The translations under genes and the position numbers were made by a program. From the NCBI RefSeq assembly GCF_000971195.1, contig NZ_BBLZ01000006.1, positions 62,001 through 126,000 on the forward strand: a DNA stretch of 64,000 nucleotides. Reading direction: 5' to 3'. Below, piece after piece: positions 5,801-28,297 of the stretch. The DNA comes from Demequina soli. GTDB taxonomy: Bacteria > Actinomycetota > Actinomycetes > Actinomycetales > Demequinaceae. Each line of letters opens with the position of its first letter. Within the stretch, counting starts at the first letter, position 1. The notes under the pieces were generated by a model, which saw only the letters and a list, made by a program, of their open reading frames with translations, was not told where the DNA came from and did not search any database.

Positions 5801-7012
5801 GGCGAGGCGGCCGGCGCGGCCCGAGCGCTGCCGGGCCGAGGCCTGCGAGATCGGCTCGATGGGCAGGCGCTGGACCTTGGTGGCCTTGGAGTAGCGCGAG
5901 ATGCGCGCCGTGCCGGGGTCGACGACGTAGTTGATGCCGGGCACCGTGAGCGAGGTCTCGGCGACGTTGGTCGCCAGCACGATGCGCCGGGCCGTGTGCC
6001 GCTCGAAGACGCGGTGCTGGTCGGCGGCGCTGAGGCGCGAGTAGAGCGGCAGGATCTCGACGCGGCGGGGGTGGCGCGGGTCGCGCGCGCGGTCGCCCAG
6101 GTGCGCCTCGAGGCCGTCGGCGGCGTCGCGGATCTCCCGCTCTCCGGACAGGAACACGAGGACGTCGCCGTCGCCCCACGTCATGAGCTCGTCGCACGCG
6201 TCGACGATGCCCGTCACCAGGTCCCGCTCCTCGCCCCTGGACTCGCCCTCGAGCGGGCGGTAGAGGATCTCGACCGGGTAGGTGCGGCCGGTGACCTCGA
6301 CGACCGGGGCGGTGGGCGCATCGTCCGGCGCGTCCGCCGCGAGCGGGCCGCCGGGCGCGAAGTGGCGCGCGAAGCGGTCGGAGTCGATGGTCGCCGAGGT
6401 GATGACGATCTTCAGGTCGGGGCGGCGCGGCAGCAGGTTGGTGAGGTAGCCGAGGAGGAAGTCGATGTTGAGGCTGCGCTCGTGGGCCTCGTCGATGATG
6501 AGGGTGTCGTAGGCCAGCAGGTCGGGGTCGCGCTGGATCTGCGCGAGCAGGATGCCGTCCGTCATCACCTTGACGAGCGTGTTCTCCGAGCTCTGGTCGG
6601 TGAAGCGCACCTGGTAGCCGACGATCCCGCCGAGCTCCGTGCCGATCTCCTCGGCGATCCGCTCGGCGACCGAGCGCGCGGCGATGCGCCGGGGCTGCGT
6701 GTGGCCGATCTGCCCCGCGCGCCCGCGTCCCAGGTCGAGGCAGATCTTGGGCAGCTGCGTGGTCTTGCCCGAGCCGGTCTCGCCGGCGACGATCACCACC
6801 TGGTGGTCGCGGATCGCGGCGGCGATCTCCTCGCGGCGCGCGGAGACCGGCAGCTGCGCCGGGTAGGCGATGGCCGGGACCTCGACGGCGGCCCGGCGCT
6901 CGGCGGCGGCGGCCAGGGCGCGCGTGCTCACCCGGGGACGATGCGCCTCGTCCCTTCGCGGTCCGCCGCGCCCGCGCCGGGAGTTGCGTCGGGGCCGGGT
7001 CTGCTCGCTCAC
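2801..7012 (-). CDS. hrpA: ATP-dependent RNA helicase HrpA
   Basis: 1403-residue DEAH-box helicase, close to the usual HrpA length of about 1300. Walker A GETGSGKTTQ, Walker B DEAH in IIDEAHERSLNIDF, motif III ITSATIDSDRF and motif VI QRSGRAGR are all present. HA2/OB-like regions follow, then a long C-terminal DUF3418-type domain. In E. coli HrpA acts on collided ribosomes and mRNA; here the role is inferred from family. GTG at 7012 was chosen because the preceding in-frame sequence is low-complexity and unconserved. The gene contains four copies of the GGACGATGCG word, three of them reading as Asp-Asp-Ala in variable segments. Confidence 0.93.
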   Translation of the reverse strand: MSEQTRPRRNSRRGRGGPRRDEAHRPRVSTRALAAAAERRAAVEVPAIAYPAQLPVSARREEIAAAIRDHQVVIVAGETGSGKTTQLPKICLDLGRGRAGQIGHTQPRRIAARSVAERIAEEIGTELGGIVGYQVRFTDQSSENTLVKVMTDGILLAQIQRDPDLLAYDTLIIDEAHERSLNIDFLLGYLTNLLPRRPDLKIVITSATIDSDRFARHFAPGGPLAADAPDDAPTAPVVEVTGRTYPVEILYRPLEGESRGEERDLVTGIVDACDELMTWGDGDVLVFLSGEREIRDAADGLEAHLGDRARDPRHPRRVEILPLYSRLSAADQHRVFERHTARRIVLATNVAETSLTVPGINYVVDPGTARISRYSKATKVQRLPIEPISQASARQRSGRAGRLADGIAIRLYSEEDFAGRPAFTEPEILRTSLASVLLQMISVGVVASPEDVARFPFVEPPDTRAIRDGVQLLSELGAITTSDGRTALTDIGRMLARLPMDPRQARMIVEGARHGVAREVAVIAAALSIQDPRERPTERREEADLLHRRFADPTSDLLSYLNLWEHVRERQHALSGNQFRRLCRSEMLNFLRVREWQDLVQQIRESAKGLDIEMPYRKPSPVDDAEGTGALRHVWDDDAIHRSILAGLLSQVGAQDVLQLKASSFTHLKGEARAKEMRKARKRASNEFIGARGIRFAINPGSPLSKKPPEFLMAAELVETSRLWARDVARIDPAWAEDLAGDLAKRTYSEPHWSSKRGAAMASEKVLLYGVPIVADRPVLWAKVNPDEARDLFIRHALVQGEWTTHHGFWRRNQRVLEDAAEVEARSRTRGLIADEETLFAFYDARLPASIVSARHFDRWWQGARREDPELLSLTLDELVPESAAVDPSQFPERWPQLDLELPLTYQFEPGTAADGVTVHVPVGVLARLVPDGFDWLVPGMQPELVTATIRALPKPVRRLLVPAPDAARDIVAWMGEHLPAWADVVRAGDMAEPFRDAFTRAVLALRDVDIPADAWDGLEERLPAHLHMTFRVVEPRGRGGDRILDESHDLLLLQRSLAPEAQAAVRTAVQRAADAAARRSTPGPAAVVAAASSGDDAPRPASAAVAEVEALAGWPALDALPDEVEGTVHGVVARGYPAIVEEKGPRASLRVLADSVGRDAAHAHGVRRLLLTEVGLATRRVTTRWTPAESLALGASPYRSTDALVDDLQAAAIARLTPEAGNVRDRATYEELRERVRAGLEDAVLDVARQAAAALAAARELDVAVRGATSLSLLSTLQELREQSAALVGDGFVRATPPERLPHLARYLKAGAHRLEKAQADPAKDAQLAWQVAQSVEQYDTVRASHAKGRVTPETAAALDGVRWMIEELRVSLFAQRLGTDGPVSEQRIRKALAAVGADHAR

Positions 7013-22099: not shown

Positions 22100-22132
22100 A
22101 CCCGTGCCCCGCGCGCGTGCCAGGCTGTGCGC

Positions 22133-22558
22133 ATGAAAGCCCTGGTGACGATGCTGGTGCTGGCCGTCGCGGTACCGCTCGCGGGCTGCGCGGCCACCGG
22201 GGGCGCGGCGGCCTCGTGCGTGGGACCCGAGCTCTCGGTCGCGCCGGAGGCGGTCGCGCCGGGGGAGGCCGTGTCCATCGCGCTGTCGCGGGCGCTCGAC
22301 GGGTGCCACGACACCGGCCAGCCCGGCGCCGCCGCGTGGGCGCAGGGCACGGTCCCCGCCGTCGTGACGCGGACGGGGACCGTGTTCCGCGACGTCGCGA
22401 CCGTCGACCTGACGCTCGTGCACGGCGACGGCGAGGCGGTCCTCGACACCTCCGGCCTCAAGCCCGGCACCTACCTGGTCACCGTCGACGGCGCCGGCCT
22501 GCCGGTCGAGGCGAACTACGGCGGCGCCGAGGCGACGTTCACCGTCGCGGGCTCCTGA
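22133..22558 (+). CDS. putative lipoprotein inserted between hisH and priA
   Basis: 141 residues: signal peptide with lipobox LAGC (Cys about residue 19) and a small beta-rich domain with two further cysteines. No family recognised. ATG 22133 is preferred over the in-frame GTG at 22127 because CAGGCT (22121-22126) then lies exactly 6 nt upstream, as in other leaderless genes here. It has its own promoter, so it is a passenger in the his cluster. Confidence 0.7.
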   Translation: MKALVTMLVLAVAVPLAGCAATGGAAASCVGPELSVAPEAVAPGEAVSIALSRALDGCHDTGQPGAAAWAQGTVPAVVTRTGTVFRDVATVDLTLVHGDGEAVLDTSGLKPGTYLVTVDGAGLPVEANYGGAEATFTVAGS

Positions 22559-23428: not shown

Positions 23429-24154
23429 ATGAGCGAGGACGAGCCCCTGAAGGAGATCCCCGAGTCGATCTTCTCCGACGACGACGGCAGCGCGGACGCG
23501 CGCCTCGCGCAGGCCCTGATCCGCTACTCCCACGGCAAGGCCGAGATGGCCGACGTGGTCGACGCGCTCGCCTACGCGCGGGTGCTCATCCCCGTGATGG
23601 CGTCGGGGGAGAAGCGCGTGGTCGGCAAGCACGGGCTCGAGCAGGACGAGGTCGCCTCCACCGGCGTCGTCGCCGTCGAGATGCCCGACGGCCGCACCGC
23701 GCTGCCCATCTTCACCGACGTGGACGCGGTCAAGGCGTGGAGCGACCGCGCCCGGCCCATCCCGGCGGAGGGCCCGCGCGCGGCGCTCGCCGCGGTCGCC
23801 GAGGGCTGGAGCGCGCTCGTGCTCAATCCCGGCATGGAGACGGTGCTCATCCCGCGCCCGGCCGTCTGGGCGCTCGGCCAGGGAGAGCCGTGGCGCCCCG
23901 CGGTAGTCGACGGCACCGTGGCGGAGGACGTCCGCGCGGCCGTCCAGGAGGCCGTCGCGCTCGACGAGTTGCTGCGCGGCGTCGACGCGGTGCCCGGCCG
24001 TGGCGCCGAGGTCGCCGTGGTCCTGCGCCTCGTCCCGGGCCTCACGCAGCCGGAGCTCGACGCGATCCTCGAGCGCGTGCAGGCGCAGCTCGCGCGCGCG
24101 GCCGTGGTGGCCCAGCGCATCGACAGCCTCGAGCTGCGGCTCGCGCAGGCCTGA
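23429..24154 (+). CDS. SseB family protein
   Basis: 241 residues with the SseB N-terminal domain pattern (SIFSDDDGSADARLAQAL; LPIFTDVDAVKAW). The C-terminal part is a helical, Glu/Ala-rich region. It commonly sits between the his operon and infC in actinobacteria. The start is supported by TAGGCT (23417-23422), 6 nt before the ATG. Despite the name, there is no evidence for a secretion role here. Confidence 0.88.
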   Translation: MSEDEPLKEIPESIFSDDDGSADARLAQALIRYSHGKAEMADVVDALAYARVLIPVMASGEKRVVGKHGLEQDEVASTGVVAVEMPDGRTALPIFTDVDAVKAWSDRARPIPAEGPRAALAAVAEGWSALVLNPGMETVLIPRPAVWALGQGEPWRPAVVDGTVAEDVRAAVQEAVALDELLRGVDAVPGRGAEVAVVLRLVPGLTQPELDAILERVQAQLARAAVVAQRIDSLELRLAQA

Positions 24155-24175
24155 ACCCGGCGCTCGCCGCGCCGC

Positions 24176-24886
24176 TCAGCAGGCGGCGCGCACCTCGGTG
24201 AGCCGCGCCTCGTCCGCGAGGAACGCCTCGAGGCGCGGCAGCGTGACCGCGCCCGCGTACTCGTGCGAGTCGGACGAGAACACCACGCCCACGACATCGC
24301 CCGCGGCGTCCGTGACGGGGGAGCCCGAGTTGCCCTCCTTGGCGAGCACCCGCAGGTAGTAGATCTGCGGTCCTCCCGGGTCGAGCTCGTCGTCTCGCAG
24401 CCCGACGTACGGCCCCGTGACGGAGGCGAGCGGCCCGCCGAGCGCGTAGCCGGTCACCGTGAGGTCGTCGCCCGGGGAGGGCTCGTCGGTCGCGATCGTC
24501 GCGGCGTCGGGGAAGGTGCCGTCGATCGTGATGAGCGCCAGGTCGTCGCTCGTCGAGTAGGCGGCCGTGGTGGCGTGGTAGTGACGCCCCTGGTAGTCGG
24601 TCAGCTCGAGGTCGGTCGCACCCTTCACGACGTGCCGGTTGGTGACGGCGTGGGTCCGGTCCAGCATCCACGCGGTTCCGTTGCGGTAGGAGTCGCACGT
24701 GGTCGCCCAGACGCGCAGCGTGATCCGTTCGGCGTGGGTGAAGCCGTCCCCGGACGATGCGGCGGAGGAGGCCGCGACGGGCGTCGGGGTCGCGTACGGC
24801 GGCGGGGACAGCGGCACGCACGCGGCGAGCGCGAGGGCGGCGAGAGCGGCGATCAGGCCGGTGCGCGCCGCCCTCGGCTCACCCAT
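24176..24886 (-). CDS. trypsin-like serine protease lipoprotein (second copy)
   Basis: 236 residues. Lipoprotein signal with LAAC (Cys 23), a short Pro/Ser linker, then a chymotrypsin-fold protease with His85 in TNRHVV, Asp115 in SDDLALI and Ser187 in GNSGSPV. All three catalytic residues are present, so an active, membrane-anchored protease outside the cell is expected. ATG 24886 overlaps the upstream coiled-coil gene by 8 bases, implying coupling. It is paralogous to the protease at 25376-26131. The linker contains a GGACGATGCG copy encoding AASSG. Confidence 0.88.
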   Translation of the reverse strand: MGEPRAARTGLIAALAALALAACVPLSPPPYATPTPVAASSAASSGDGFTHAERITLRVWATTCDSYRNGTAWMLDRTHAVTNRHVVKGATDLELTDYQGRHYHATTAAYSTSDDLALITIDGTFPDAATIATDEPSPGDDLTVTGYALGGPLASVTGPYVGLRDDELDPGGPQIYYLRVLAKEGNSGSPVTDAAGDVVGVVFSSDSHEYAGAVTLPRLEAFLADEARLTEVRAAC

Positions 24887-25379
24887 GCTTGGCCTGGAAG
24901 GCGTCGTACGCGGCATGCACCTTGTCGCAGTAGTCGACGATCGAGGACTCCGATGCGTCGACGCTCGACGCGATGTAGCGGTCCGGGTGCCGCAGGACGT
25001 CGAAGTGCTCCTGCTGGGCGTCGACGCAGCGCTGGTACGCGTCGACGATGTCCTCGAGCTCCGTCACCAGCTCGGTGCCCTGCGCGCCCGAGTTCACCGC
25101 GGAGGAGTACTCCTTCTTCAGCGCGGCGAGCTCGGCGCGCGTCTGCTCGAGGCTGGCCAGGCGCGTGTTCTGGTCCGACACCTGGTCGGTGAGCGACCGC
25201 ACGCGGCCCCGCAGGTCGGCGTTCTGGCCCTCCCACGTGGAGCGAGCCGTCGCGAGCAGCGCGAGCGGCACCGCGAGCGCGACCACGGCGACGAGGGCGA
25301 GGGCGAGGCCGATCGCGAGCCCGCGCCGGCGGCGAGGCGCCGCGGGCGCCGCCGGGGGCTCGACGGGCCCCTCGGTCAC
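24879..25379 (-). CDS. single-pass membrane protein with coiled coil (second copy)
   Basis: 166 residues: Pro/Arg-rich cytoplasmic N-terminus, one transmembrane helix (about residues 21-43), then an external coiled coil (SLTDQVSDQNTRLASLEQTR) and a C-terminal domain with two cysteines (YQRCVDAQQEHFDVLRHPD; IVDYCDKVHAAYDAF). The same C-terminal pattern occurs in the protein at 26128-26967. GTG 25379 overlaps the preceding protease stop by four bases (GTGA). Probably works with the adjacent protease; not a family I recognise. Confidence 0.78.
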   Translation of the reverse strand: MTEGPVEPPAAPAAPRRRRGLAIGLALALVAVVALAVPLALLATARSTWEGQNADLRGRVRSLTDQVSDQNTRLASLEQTRAELAALKKEYSSAVNSGAQGTELVTELEDIVDAYQRCVDAQQEHFDVLRHPDRYIASSVDASESSIVDYCDKVHAAYDAFQAKHG

Positions 25380-26131
25380 CGCGCCCCCGCGTTGGTGCTC
25401 ACGCAGGACGCCTCCGGCACGAACAGCGAGGCCTCGCTCAGCAGCGTGTTGAGCGTGGAGATGGGCACGATGAAGCTCTGGTCCGAGAAGTTCTTGGCGT
25501 AGATGACGCCCACGACGTGGCCCTCCTCGTCGAGGACCGGCGATCCCGAGGACCCCTGCGACACCTTCGCGCTCGTCGCGAGCACGGTGCCGACGGCGCC
25601 GCCCAGCGGGTCGCTCGTGGTGCCGAGCACCACGCCCGTCGAGGTGGTGAGGCGCCCGCCGTTCGGGTACCCGACCACCGTGATGACGTCGCCCTCCGCG
25701 GGGTCCGCGTCGGCGCGCACCGCGAAGGCCGAGCCCAGCGACTCCTCGGTGGTGACGATCGCGATGTCGGCGACCGCGGTGGTGGTCGCGGCCGTCGCCG
25801 CGATCGAGCGCCCGTCGTAGGTGGTCACGGTGATGCGCTTGGCGTCGTCGACCACGTGCCGGTTGGTGACCAGCGTGTGCGAGTCGAGCGCGAAACCGGT
25901 GCCGGTCGCGATGAACCCGCAGCCGACGTTGCGCACGCGCACCGTCATGCGCTGGGCGGCCGTGAAGCCGTCGGGGGACAGGGCGCCGGGGCCGTCGCCC
26001 GGCGAGGCGGACGATGCGGGGACGAAGTCGTCGGGCATCGCGCCCGGGGCCTGGGGCAGGGTGGCGCAGCCCGCGAGGGCGAGCGCCAGGGTGGCGGCGA
26101 GCGCGGCGCCGGCGGTACGCGCTCGGCTCAT
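25376..26131 (-). CDS. trypsin-like serine protease lipoprotein (first copy)
   Basis: 251 residues. Lipobox LAGC (Cys 22), Pro/Ser linker, then a chymotrypsin-fold protease with His92 (TNRHVV), Asp122 (AVADIAIV) and Ser195 (QGSSGSPV). It is complete and likely active on the outer face of the membrane. The ATG at 26131 overlaps the upstream gene by four bases. Order of the operon is membrane coiled coil, protease, membrane coiled coil, protease, i.e. a duplicated pair. A GGACGATGCG copy encodes PASSAS in the linker. Confidence 0.9.
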   Translation of the reverse strand: MSRARTAGAALAATLALALAGCATLPQAPGAMPDDFVPASSASPGDGPGALSPDGFTAAQRMTVRVRNVGCGFIATGTGFALDSHTLVTNRHVVDDAKRITVTTYDGRSIAATAATTTAVADIAIVTTEESLGSAFAVRADADPAEGDVITVVGYPNGGRLTTSTGVVLGTTSDPLGGAVGTVLATSAKVSQGSSGSPVLDEEGHVVGVIYAKNFSDQSFIVPISTLNTLLSEASLFVPEASCVSTNAGAR

Positions 26132-26967
26132 CCCGCCACCGACTGCTGGAAGGAGACGTTCGCCGCGGTGGCGGCCGCGCACAGCTCGTCGACGCTCTTC
26201 TCGTACGCGCGGATCTCCTTCTTGTCGAAGTCGTCCGGGGAGCGCAGGTAGTCGACGAGCTTCTCGTGGCCCTCGACGCAGCGGCTCAGGGAGCTCGCGA
26301 CGGAGGACGCCGAGGTGATGATCGACTGGAGGCCGTCGATCTGCTCCTGCGCGTAGGCGGCGTCGTCGCCCCACTGCGCGTTCTCGGCCTGGAGGCGGCT
26401 CACCGTGTCCTTCGAGGCCGACAGCTGCTGCGTGACGAGGTCGAGCTGCTGCTGCGTCGCGGCGAGCGTGTCGCGCTCGGCGGTGAGGTCGGTGCCGAGG
26501 CTGTGGCCCACCTCGGTGAGCTCGGCGACCCGCACCTCCCACGCGTCGGAGACGCGCCACAGGTAGGCGATGAGCGCGGCCGCGGCGAGCAGCGTGACGG
26601 TCATCATCGCGACCACGATGATGAGGCCGACGGGGCGCGGCGGATGGGCGGCGAAGGGCTCGTCGTCGGCGGCCTCGGCGCCGTCGGGGGCCACCATGGG
26701 GTCGGCGTCGTCGTCCTCGCCGAACCGGTGGGTCTCGTCGACGCCCGCGGCGCGCGAGGAGCGCCCCTTGCGGGGCTCCGCGACGGCCGCGCCGCCGACC
26801 ACCGGGATCTCGTCGGTGTCGACGACGTCGTGGGGAGTCGGCTCGGTGACGGGGTAGAAGGGGAGGCGCGTCCGCGGGGGGCTGGTGGCGGTCCCTGTGG
26901 ACGCGCTCAGCGAACCGGCGCGGCTGCCGAGATCGGCTCCGCGCCGGACGTCCTCCCCATTCGCCAC
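26128..26967 (-). CDS. single-pass membrane protein with coiled coil (first copy)
   Basis: 279 residues: a disordered, acidic cytoplasmic N-terminus of about 110 residues, one transmembrane helix (VGLIIVVAMMTVTLLAAAAL), a long external coiled coil (about residues 140-215) and a C-terminal region with two conserved cysteines (SRCVEGHEKLVDYLRSPDDF; VDELCAAA). The shorter protein at 24879-25379 shares this C-terminus. GTG 26967 overlaps the DUF1844 stop by one base (TAGTG). Probably a partner or tether of the downstream protease; inferred from gene order. Confidence 0.8.
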   Translation of the reverse strand: MANGEDVRRGADLGSRAGSLSASTGTATSPPRTRLPFYPVTEPTPHDVVDTDEIPVVGGAAVAEPRKGRSSRAAGVDETHRFGEDDDADPMVAPDGAEAADDEPFAAHPPRPVGLIIVVAMMTVTLLAAAALIAYLWRVSDAWEVRVAELTEVGHSLGTDLTAERDTLAATQQQLDLVTQQLSASKDTVSRLQAENAQWGDDAAYAQEQIDGLQSIITSASSVASSLSRCVEGHEKLVDYLRSPDDFDKKEIRAYEKSVDELCAAATAANVSFQQSVAG

Positions 26968-27371
26968 TACGTGACCGCCCCCGTGTACTTCTCGCCGGGT
27001 CCCTCCCCGGGCCGGTCCGGGATCGCCGAGGCCTCCCGGAATGCCAACTGTACGCTTCGCAAACCGTCACGAAGCGCGCGCGCATGCGTGTCGCCGAGGT
27101 CCGGGGCAGCGGCGGTGACGAGCCCCGCGAGGGCGTTGATGATCGTCCGCGCCTCGTCGAGGTCCTGGTGCTTCTCGCCGTCCTCCGCCAGCCCGCACCG
27201 CAGTGCGGCCGCGCTGAGAAGATGAACGCTCACGGTCGTGATAAGTTCCACCGCGCTCACCTCGGCGATGTCACGGGCCGCCTCGGCGACCCCCGCATCG
27301 TCCGTCGGAGGGGGCATGTCTGCGGCACCGGCGGGCATGCCGGGACCTGCTTCCTGGTCTTCTGGGCACAT
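26967..27371 (-). CDS. DUF1844 domain-containing protein
   Basis: 134 residues with the DUF1844 core [23 protein letters not shown] followed by [16 protein letters not shown]. Soluble and helical. It is divergent from infC, a frequent actinobacterial arrangement. The start ATG 27371 is chosen because CAGAAT ends 7 nt upstream on the minus strand, matching the leaderless pattern. Its stop overlaps the start of the coiled-coil/protease operon, so these genes may be co-transcribed. Function unknown. Confidence 0.82.
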
Positions 27372-27520
27372 GCTTGCTATTCTGGTGCATCGACCGGTTG
27401 CGGCAGACGTCGCAACACGCAAGTGGAGTCCACCTCCCACCCTCGGACCGTCAAGGACCAGGGTCTCGGTCACGGCCTTCGCCGCGAGGTTTCGCGGTGG
27501 GGTGTTCCGTGCCTCCGGTG

Positions 27521-27553
27521 GCCTCTGCTCGTGTTTCGGGCAGGGGCCTTTTC
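27521..27553 (+). promoter_or_regulatory. terminator-like hairpin in the infC leader
   Basis: GGCCTCTGC (27521-27529) pairs with GCAGGGGCC (27541-27549), nine pairs with one G-T, followed at once by TTTT (27550-27553). It lies 63 bases before the infC start codon in a leader of about 230 nt. Such a structure could attenuate the infC-rpmI-rplT operon. I do not recognise a named leader family. Confidence 0.5.
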
Positions 27554-27616
27554 CCGTTTCTGGGGGCAGGGCGCCGGCCGGGAGGTCGCACACGTCAGCA
27601 ACGAGAAGGAGCCGCT

Positions 27617-28297
27617 ATCAACGAGCCGCGCATCAACGAGCGCATCCGAGTCCCCGAGGTCCGCCTGGTCGGTCCGAAGGGCGAGCAGGTCGGCATCGTC
27701 CGCATCGAGGATGCCCTCCGTCTGGCGCAGGACGCCGAGCTCGACCTGGTCGAGGTGGCGCCCAACTCGCGTCCTCCCGTCGTCAAGCTCATGGACTACG
27801 GCAAGTTCAAGTACGAGGCTGCGGTCAAGGCGCGCGAGGCACGTCGCAATCAGGCGAACACCGAGATCAAGGAGATGCGGTTCCGTCTCAAGATCGACGA
27901 GCACGACTACGAGACCAAGAAGGGTCACGTCGTCCGGTTCCTCAAGGGTGGCGACAAGGTCAAGGTCACGATCATGTTCCGTGGCCGTGAGCAGTCCCGT
28001 CCCGAGATGGGCCGACGCCTGCTGATGAAGCTCGCGGAGGAGCTCCAGGAGTACGGCGTGGTCGAGAACGCGCCGAGCCACGAGGGGCGCAACATGTCGC
28101 TCGTCCTGGGTCCGCTGAAGAAGAAGGCGGAGGCCAAGGAGGAGCAGCGCAAGGTCCGCGAGGAGCGCAAGGCCGCCGAGCAGGCCGCGCGCGACGAGAA
28201 GGACCGCAAGGCGCCGAAGGGTGCCGAGGTGGCCGACGAGGCACCCGAGGTGACCGACGAGGTCGCCGAGGCCGTCGAGGAGTCGGCGGCCGAGTAG
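27617..28297 (+). CDS. infC: translation initiation factor IF-3 (non-AUG start)
   Basis: 226 residues from an ATC codon. IF-3 binds the 30S subunit and checks initiator tRNA and start codon. The family start [19 protein letters not shown] aligns with ATC at 27617, with GAAGGAG at 27604-27610; no ATG or GTG is available at that point. Rare start codons in infC are known to allow IF-3 autoregulation. Both IF-3 domains are complete ([21 protein letters not shown]), followed by an acidic/lysine-rich C-terminal extension of about 50 residues common in actinobacteria. Confidence 0.95.

Follow-up and report, generated by a model that had tools for sequence, protein, structure and literature searches.

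A coiled-coil stalk protein paired with a MarP-like protease lipoprotein in Demequina and related actinobacteria

Envelope proteases are often under the control of partner proteins, and the difficulty lies in identifying them. In Demequina soli (contig NZ_BBLZ01000006.1), four minus-strand genes at 24176-26967 of the 64,000-nucleotide stretch of DNA that was analysed, hereafter the window, all overlap and follow each other in the order A, B, C, D, with A and C encoding coiled-coil membrane proteins (the "stalk" proteins) and B and D encoding trypsin-like protease lipoproteins. This layout raises the question of whether each stalk protein is the partner of the protease encoded behind it and, if so, what it does for that protease. 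We find that co-occurrence, gene order and shared loss point to the stalk protein as the partner of this MarP-like protease across a broad actinobacterial group of more than a dozen related genera, which includes Cellulomonas, Isoptericola, Georgenia, Demequina and others. Many of these pair-bearing actinobacteria can be cultured, and Demequina supplies a natural second copy for comparison. The features needed here are as follows.

26967-26128, minus strand: A, stalk protein with a cytoplasmic tail, one transmembrane helix, a coiled coil and a two-cysteine helical hairpin (GTG start, 279 amino acids)
26281..26541, minus strand: stalk of A, residues 143-229, 87 in all, starting at the juxtamembrane Trp and stopping before the first hairpin Cys (length constant in first-copy units)
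26134..26370, minus strand: hairpin of A, residues 200-278, with Cys230 and Cys263 and, at its start, the hinge with near-invariant Ala197 and Asp201 (predicted helices and cysteine counts)
26131-25376, minus strand: B, MarP-like serine protease lipoprotein (ATG start, 251 amino acids; lipobox Cys22, His92, Asp122, Ser195, Cys71, Cys243)
25379-24879, minus strand: C, second stalk protein (GTG start, 166 amino acids; shorter stalk, 69 residues by the Trp-to-first-Cys measure)
24886-24176, minus strand: D, second MarP-like protease lipoprotein (ATG start, 236 amino acids; lipobox Cys23, Cys64, Cys236, triad intact)

The initial annotation had described four overlapping genes that alternate membrane protein and protease lipoprotein, and the coordinates confirm this, with overlaps of 4 nucleotides for A/B (ATGA), 4 for B/C (GTGA) and 8 for C/D. 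It had also called the four genes a duplicated pair, and this holds too: A and C, which both combine a single membrane helix with a coiled coil and a C-terminal pair of cysteines, detect each other by sequence search (E-values of 1.8e-5 and 7.4e-6), while B and D, each with a lipobox and a Trypsin_2 domain, are 37% identical (E 2e-30). A/B and C/D are a tandem duplication of a single stalk-protease pair.

Shared presence, order and loss of the two genes

The stalk was found in all 44 genomes of the genus Demequina, and the neighbourhoods of all 44 hold a stalk gene followed by a protease gene at one and the same site, with two such pairs in 33 genomes and one in 11. Across 396 genomes of the order, a protease profile with a threshold of E 1e-35 fixed beforehand was matched by 78 genomes from 17 of 109 genera. 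The corresponding stalk profile was matched by 88 of the 396 genomes at E 1e-3, including 78 at 1.4e-7 or better, the split into strong and weak matches being set after a gap had been seen between 1.4e-7 and 7.3e-5. When the stalk and protease lists were matched by eye, they turned out to consist of the same 78 genomes (34 of the genus, one of a sister genus and 43 others). The initial annotation had made its case depend on the pairs co-occurring in other genomes, which they do, and the two genes are adjacent in every strong case opened: outside the family, 43/43 strong stalk matches are immediately followed by a protease gene. None of 11 weak matches (10 genomes of the order and one outside it) has a protease beside it; two more weak second stalk matches (G072 and G334) are not among the 11 counted. 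Among 296 genomes sampled from the class, the single stalk match outside the order was weak and had no protease there, and the stalk family seems confined to the order at this sensitivity and sampling.

Gene order was equally regular in loci chosen via the protease, for which we took the best 80 of 466 confirmed ones, partly repeating genomes of the genus and order samples. The stalk gene is directly upstream of the protease gene in 80/80 of these loci, which span Demequina, Cellulomonas, Cellulosimicrobium, Actinotalea, Isoptericola, Promicromonospora, Georgenia, Sanguibacter and others. Named loci in which protease identity reaches 85-87% are from Demequina, which places the genome with this genus. 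With the protease start set at the start codon closest to the end of the stalk gene, the 4-nucleotide overlap of stalk and protease genes was counted in 151 of 194 pairs, or 120 of 154 distinct ones. One locus (L236) comes from a record titled Sphaerisporangium cinnabarinum, with a protease that groups among those of Cellulosimicrobium in a quick tree; the record is possibly mislabelled.

The second pair behaves as a unit. On a five-marker species tree of 43 genus genomes and the sister-genus genome G044 (G011, which carries locus L105, was left out), C/D was lost three times by Fitch parsimony or four times by Dollo parsimony, and 0/44 genus genomes have only one of these two genes. A search for C in the 11 single-pair genomes gave nothing in 10 and only A in the remaining one. 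In locus L089, fragments of a decayed D gene persist beside the A/B pair (6298-6559), and no C was found beside that pair. In a quick protease tree, whose long branches are unsure, B clusters with the proteases of Cellulomonas and its kin, which have just one each, and the D proteins of the genus form a long-branched group. From these sequences, Demequina appears to carry an old-type pair, A/B, together with a fast-changing extra pair, C/D. C and D also change together beyond the species signal, with a residual r of 0.67 in a mirror-tree comparison of 31 genomes.

Because of this shared presence, the gene overlap, the joint loss and the joint change of C and D, we consider it nearly certain that stalk and protease are a functional pair. 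The protease/tether pairing that had been suggested is well supported in this sense, by co-occurrence, adjacency and the loss of the second pair as a unit, and the placement on the outer face agrees with the topology, this being the outer face of the actinobacterial cell membrane. The alternative that had been offered, a protease/sensor complex, finds little support, since the cytoplasmic part of the stalk protein varies in length and sequence between relatives and the two-cysteine head is missing in one genus (6/6 genomes). The possible role in envelope surveillance that had also been put forward would follow by analogy with MarP. In the literature searched, which leaves most subscription journals outside its coverage, we found no published study of a stalk-protease pair and, in line with the initial annotation, no named system of such layout.

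A stalk of constant length and a conserved protease domain

The stalk matches no described family. Among 78 members scanned, no Pfam or NCBIfam family was common to most: the commonest Pfam match, Phage_scaffold, occurred in 19 and the commonest NCBIfam match, SMC, in 17, the best single match (E 5.7e-9) was to a HemD/HemX fusion (9 members), and the window's stalk protein had no Pfam match. Profile and fold searches found no relative of the stalk in the PDB beyond generic coiled coils, and membership in a known fold was rejected (best Foldseek E 0.51; best profile E 0.004, to coiled coils only).

An AlphaFold2 model of A residues 100-279, built from 78 sequences, has a mean predicted local distance difference test score (pLDDT) of 91.2 and a predicted template modelling score (pTM) of 0.57. 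It consists of three helices (113-196, 200-242 and 249-278), of which the first break coincides with the conserved Ala197-Asp201, and it puts the turn at 12 residues from one cysteine and 14 from the other, a spacing that is as expected for a stapled hairpin in this predicted structure. Among first-copy stalk proteins, conservation is highest at Gln181, Leu182, Ala197, Asp201, Cys230, Leu237, Tyr240 and Cys263, all of them positions in the coiled coil, hinge or hairpin.

For comparisons within the stalk family we used 155 units, a set that excludes L169-L189 and L228 (their genomes also occur under another id) as well as L075, L105 and L189, in which A is broken over two frames. A pattern RCVx6-9LRxPD...C had been reported as shared by A and C. 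Its cysteine pair proved conserved, with two cysteines on the C-terminal side of the juxtamembrane Trp in 154/155 units (the exception is L167) and a spacing of 33 or 34 residues in 143/155, whereas the surrounding motif is local, LRxPD occurring in 6/155 units and RC[VIL] in 37/155.

The distance from the juxtamembrane Trp to the first Cys is 87 residues in 119/120 first-copy units (114/115 distinct sequences), even though the mean identity over this stretch is 38% and the lowest 15%. The sole unit that differs, L167, encodes a truncated protein ending after the hinge. In the same 120 units, the distance between the two protease cysteines takes ten values from 170 to 180. The C stalks measure 73 residues (20 units), 69 (13 units, the window's clade) or 66 (2 units).

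On the protease side, Trypsin_2 (PF13365) is matched by B with E 5.5e-24 (86.0 bits) and by D with E 3.5e-18 (67.2 bits), both exceeding the Pfam gathering score of 27.6. The His-Asp-Ser triad that had been noted in both window proteases is present, together with the first Cys, in 193/193 protease units of the collected loci, and all 193 have exactly two cysteines in the protease domain; some genomes are counted twice in this set, and triad and cysteines were counted without search patterns. As read from their sequences, B and D each contain a single hydrophobic stretch at the N-terminus, closed by a lipobox (LAGC in B, LAAC in D), and this signal peptide and the lipobox Cys mark both as predicted bacterial lipoproteins. 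The lipobox pattern recurs in 189/191 units, and in the two that it misses, L164 and L215, visual inspection shows LFGC and TPAC at the corresponding position. A linker separates lipobox and protease domain, with a recurrent C..LP..P..P...VP pattern in many B-type proteins, and the structure model of B ends shortly after the protease domain.

What the stalk may do for the protease

We propose that stalk and lipoprotein of each pair together make up a single membrane protease in two parts, with the stalk protein as the dedicated, membrane-anchored partner. Its transmembrane helix and fixed-length, probably dimeric coiled coil would set the height of the protease domain above the membrane, and the protease domain would sit on its own lipid anchor via the linker, which is often proline-rich. 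The stalk would probably stabilise or activate the protease, and the two-cysteine hairpin at its tip would likely be a head stapled by a disulfide, serving to admit or present substrate. If the pair works as MarP does, cell-wall hydrolases or damaged envelope proteins might be the substrates. Since it is the stalk, and not the head, that is never missing, we infer that the protease contact lies at the stalk. That the stalk binds and holds the lipoprotein protease, and probably activates it, we rate at a probability of about 0.6. In L107 and L108 (both from G044, of the sister genus) and in L190 (from one metagenome-assembled genome), a single protease gene comes after two consecutive stalk genes, which suggests a heterodimeric stalk and is consistent with a dimeric one.

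The constant length further raises the idea of a ruler, in which the coiled coil would set the distance from the membrane where the lipid-tethered protease acts. This idea is tentative and we find it rather doubtful, yet the unvarying stalk length renders it directly testable: if it was true, the paralogous pairs, with a stalk shorter by 14 residues (two heptads), would act at another depth of the cell wall, and so would those of the window's clade, with a stalk shorter by 18 residues and a shorter lipid linker. A version in which stalk and linker lengths match was rejected after comparing the 153 units with a measured linker. Spearman correlation was 0.75 within C/D, mainly from one clade with both parts shorter, and 0.20 outside Demequina (p 0.09), and stalk length does not vary in the Demequina first copies. 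Only the constant stalk length is retained from the ruler idea.

The closest solved protein to B is MarP (Rv3671c) of Mycobacterium tuberculosis, the top PDB match both by profile (3k6z, E 1.9e-26) and by fold with the B model (3k6y, E 1e-13). MarP likewise has a chymotrypsin-type protease domain outside the cell membrane; its Cys just before the catalytic core aligns with the first Cys of B and D, and another Cys lies near the C-terminus in both. MarP has a disulfide 214-397 and is a single chain with four N-terminal transmembrane helices (PMC4992679), whereas B and D are lipoproteins that lack these four helices and have a stalk partner. They are not members of the MarP family serine protease model NF033740 either, with 84.9 bits (B) and 87.9 bits (D) against a cut-off of 250 and matches that begin only at profile positions 187 (B) and 183 (D) of 390.

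Envelope proteases with a dedicated non-protease partner have precedents in NlpI-Prc, in which NlpI binds Prc and aids degradation of a cell-wall hydrolase (PMC5686067), and in LbcA-CtpA, in which LbcA activates CtpA (PMC11021448, PMC8764530). In both, the partner is a lipoprotein and the enzyme a C-terminal processing protease, while in the present pair it is the enzyme that is the lipoprotein, with a transmembrane coiled coil as partner. Mycobacterial HtrA is another actinobacterial envelope serine protease for which a complex with an essential partner, LppZ, was reported (PMC12735335); compared by description, it is LppZ that is the lipoprotein and HtrA that is membrane-anchored (PMC12735335, PMC12421883). 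HtrA and DegS share protease fold and catalytic motif with B and D, in which Pfam detects no PDZ domain and which score higher against MarP than against HtrA-type models.

Could the stalk be something other than a holder of the protease? It may be a dedicated substrate or inhibitor, the protease cutting the stalk or hairpin and thereby releasing or switching something. Shared presence and joint loss are equally expected of enzyme-substrate or enzyme-inhibitor pairs, and C and D evolve fast and together, as such pairs might. The strict stalk length would be left unexplained, though, and it is in the coiled coil, hinge and hairpin that stalk residues are best conserved, no systematic search for a cleavage segment having been made; we regard this explanation as unlikely. 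A pairing that reflects nothing but inheritance of one operon, with two unrelated envelope genes co-travelling behind a DUF1844 gene, would account for the common site between rplT and SseB/hisA in most loci, where a DUF1844-like gene stands upstream of the stalk gene on the same strand in 133/146 loci (107/119 without repeats). However, no such gene was found beside the pair in the other 13 of 146 loci, G044 has a stalk-stalk-protease set at a second chromosomal site (L108), the two families coincide in 78/78 genomes, and Demequina C and D are lost together, with A and B retained, so that we judge operon inheritance very improbable.

It is also conceivable, by analogy, that the pair is a split, lipid-anchored functional equivalent of MarP that serves under acid or oxidative stress, the stalk standing in for the MarP membrane domain. 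The fold match and the matching cysteine positions speak for this, and so does the finding that 0/44 genus genomes have a MarP over the NCBI cut-off, compared with 176/396 in the order sample. Outside the family, MarP is lacking in 27/43 pair-bearing genomes versus 158/318 others, which is a slight tendency only, and we think a MarP counterpart improbable.

Several observations weigh against our own proposal of a stalk that holds and activates its protease. The other 16 of those 43 genomes have both the pair and a true MarP, and the pair as a simple MarP replacement was rejected. The hairpin head is dispensable in one genus, in which the stalk protein stops after the hinge without a two-cysteine hairpin and the protease neighbour is kept in 6/6 genomes (L167, L251, L252, L253, L255 and L256). 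One feature of these six speaks for the proposal instead: the distance from Trp to hinge Asp is 51 residues in all of them versus 58 in A, one heptad less. In the mirror-tree comparison, co-change of A and B (residual r 0.37) is not above that of A and D (0.41) or A and C (0.39), with 0.54 for B and D; C-D alone stands out, and the marker genes that defined the species signal are a weak control. Mean-field direct-coupling analysis of 155 stalk-protease pairs (effective number of sequences 103) gave scattered top inter-protein pairs and a weak intra-protein signal, the alignment being too shallow, and we claim no interface from it. Lastly, in L080 (3883-5265, from G037) a single open frame runs through A and B without an intervening stop, but a single-base sequencing or assembly difference could explain the junction, and this fusion was not counted as proof of contact.

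Gene surroundings

The first gene of the run precedes A.

26967..27371, minus strand: DUF1844 gene (Pfam DUF1844, E 1.1e-15)

Its TAG stop and the GTG start of A have one base in common. DUF1844, of unknown function and named by a single paper in the literature searched, stands at the head of the gene run in most relatives. A promoter and terminator scan of 23900-27800 found none. The locus is flanked on one side by genes that we take to be infC-rpmI-rplT and on the other by SseB (a Pfam match) and presumably hisA and other his genes, names that follow from recognition of the sequences. Within the his run, between hisH and hisA, a small open reading frame on the plus strand (22127-22558, 143 amino acids) resembles a lipoprotein gene, with LAGC as its lipobox-like motif.

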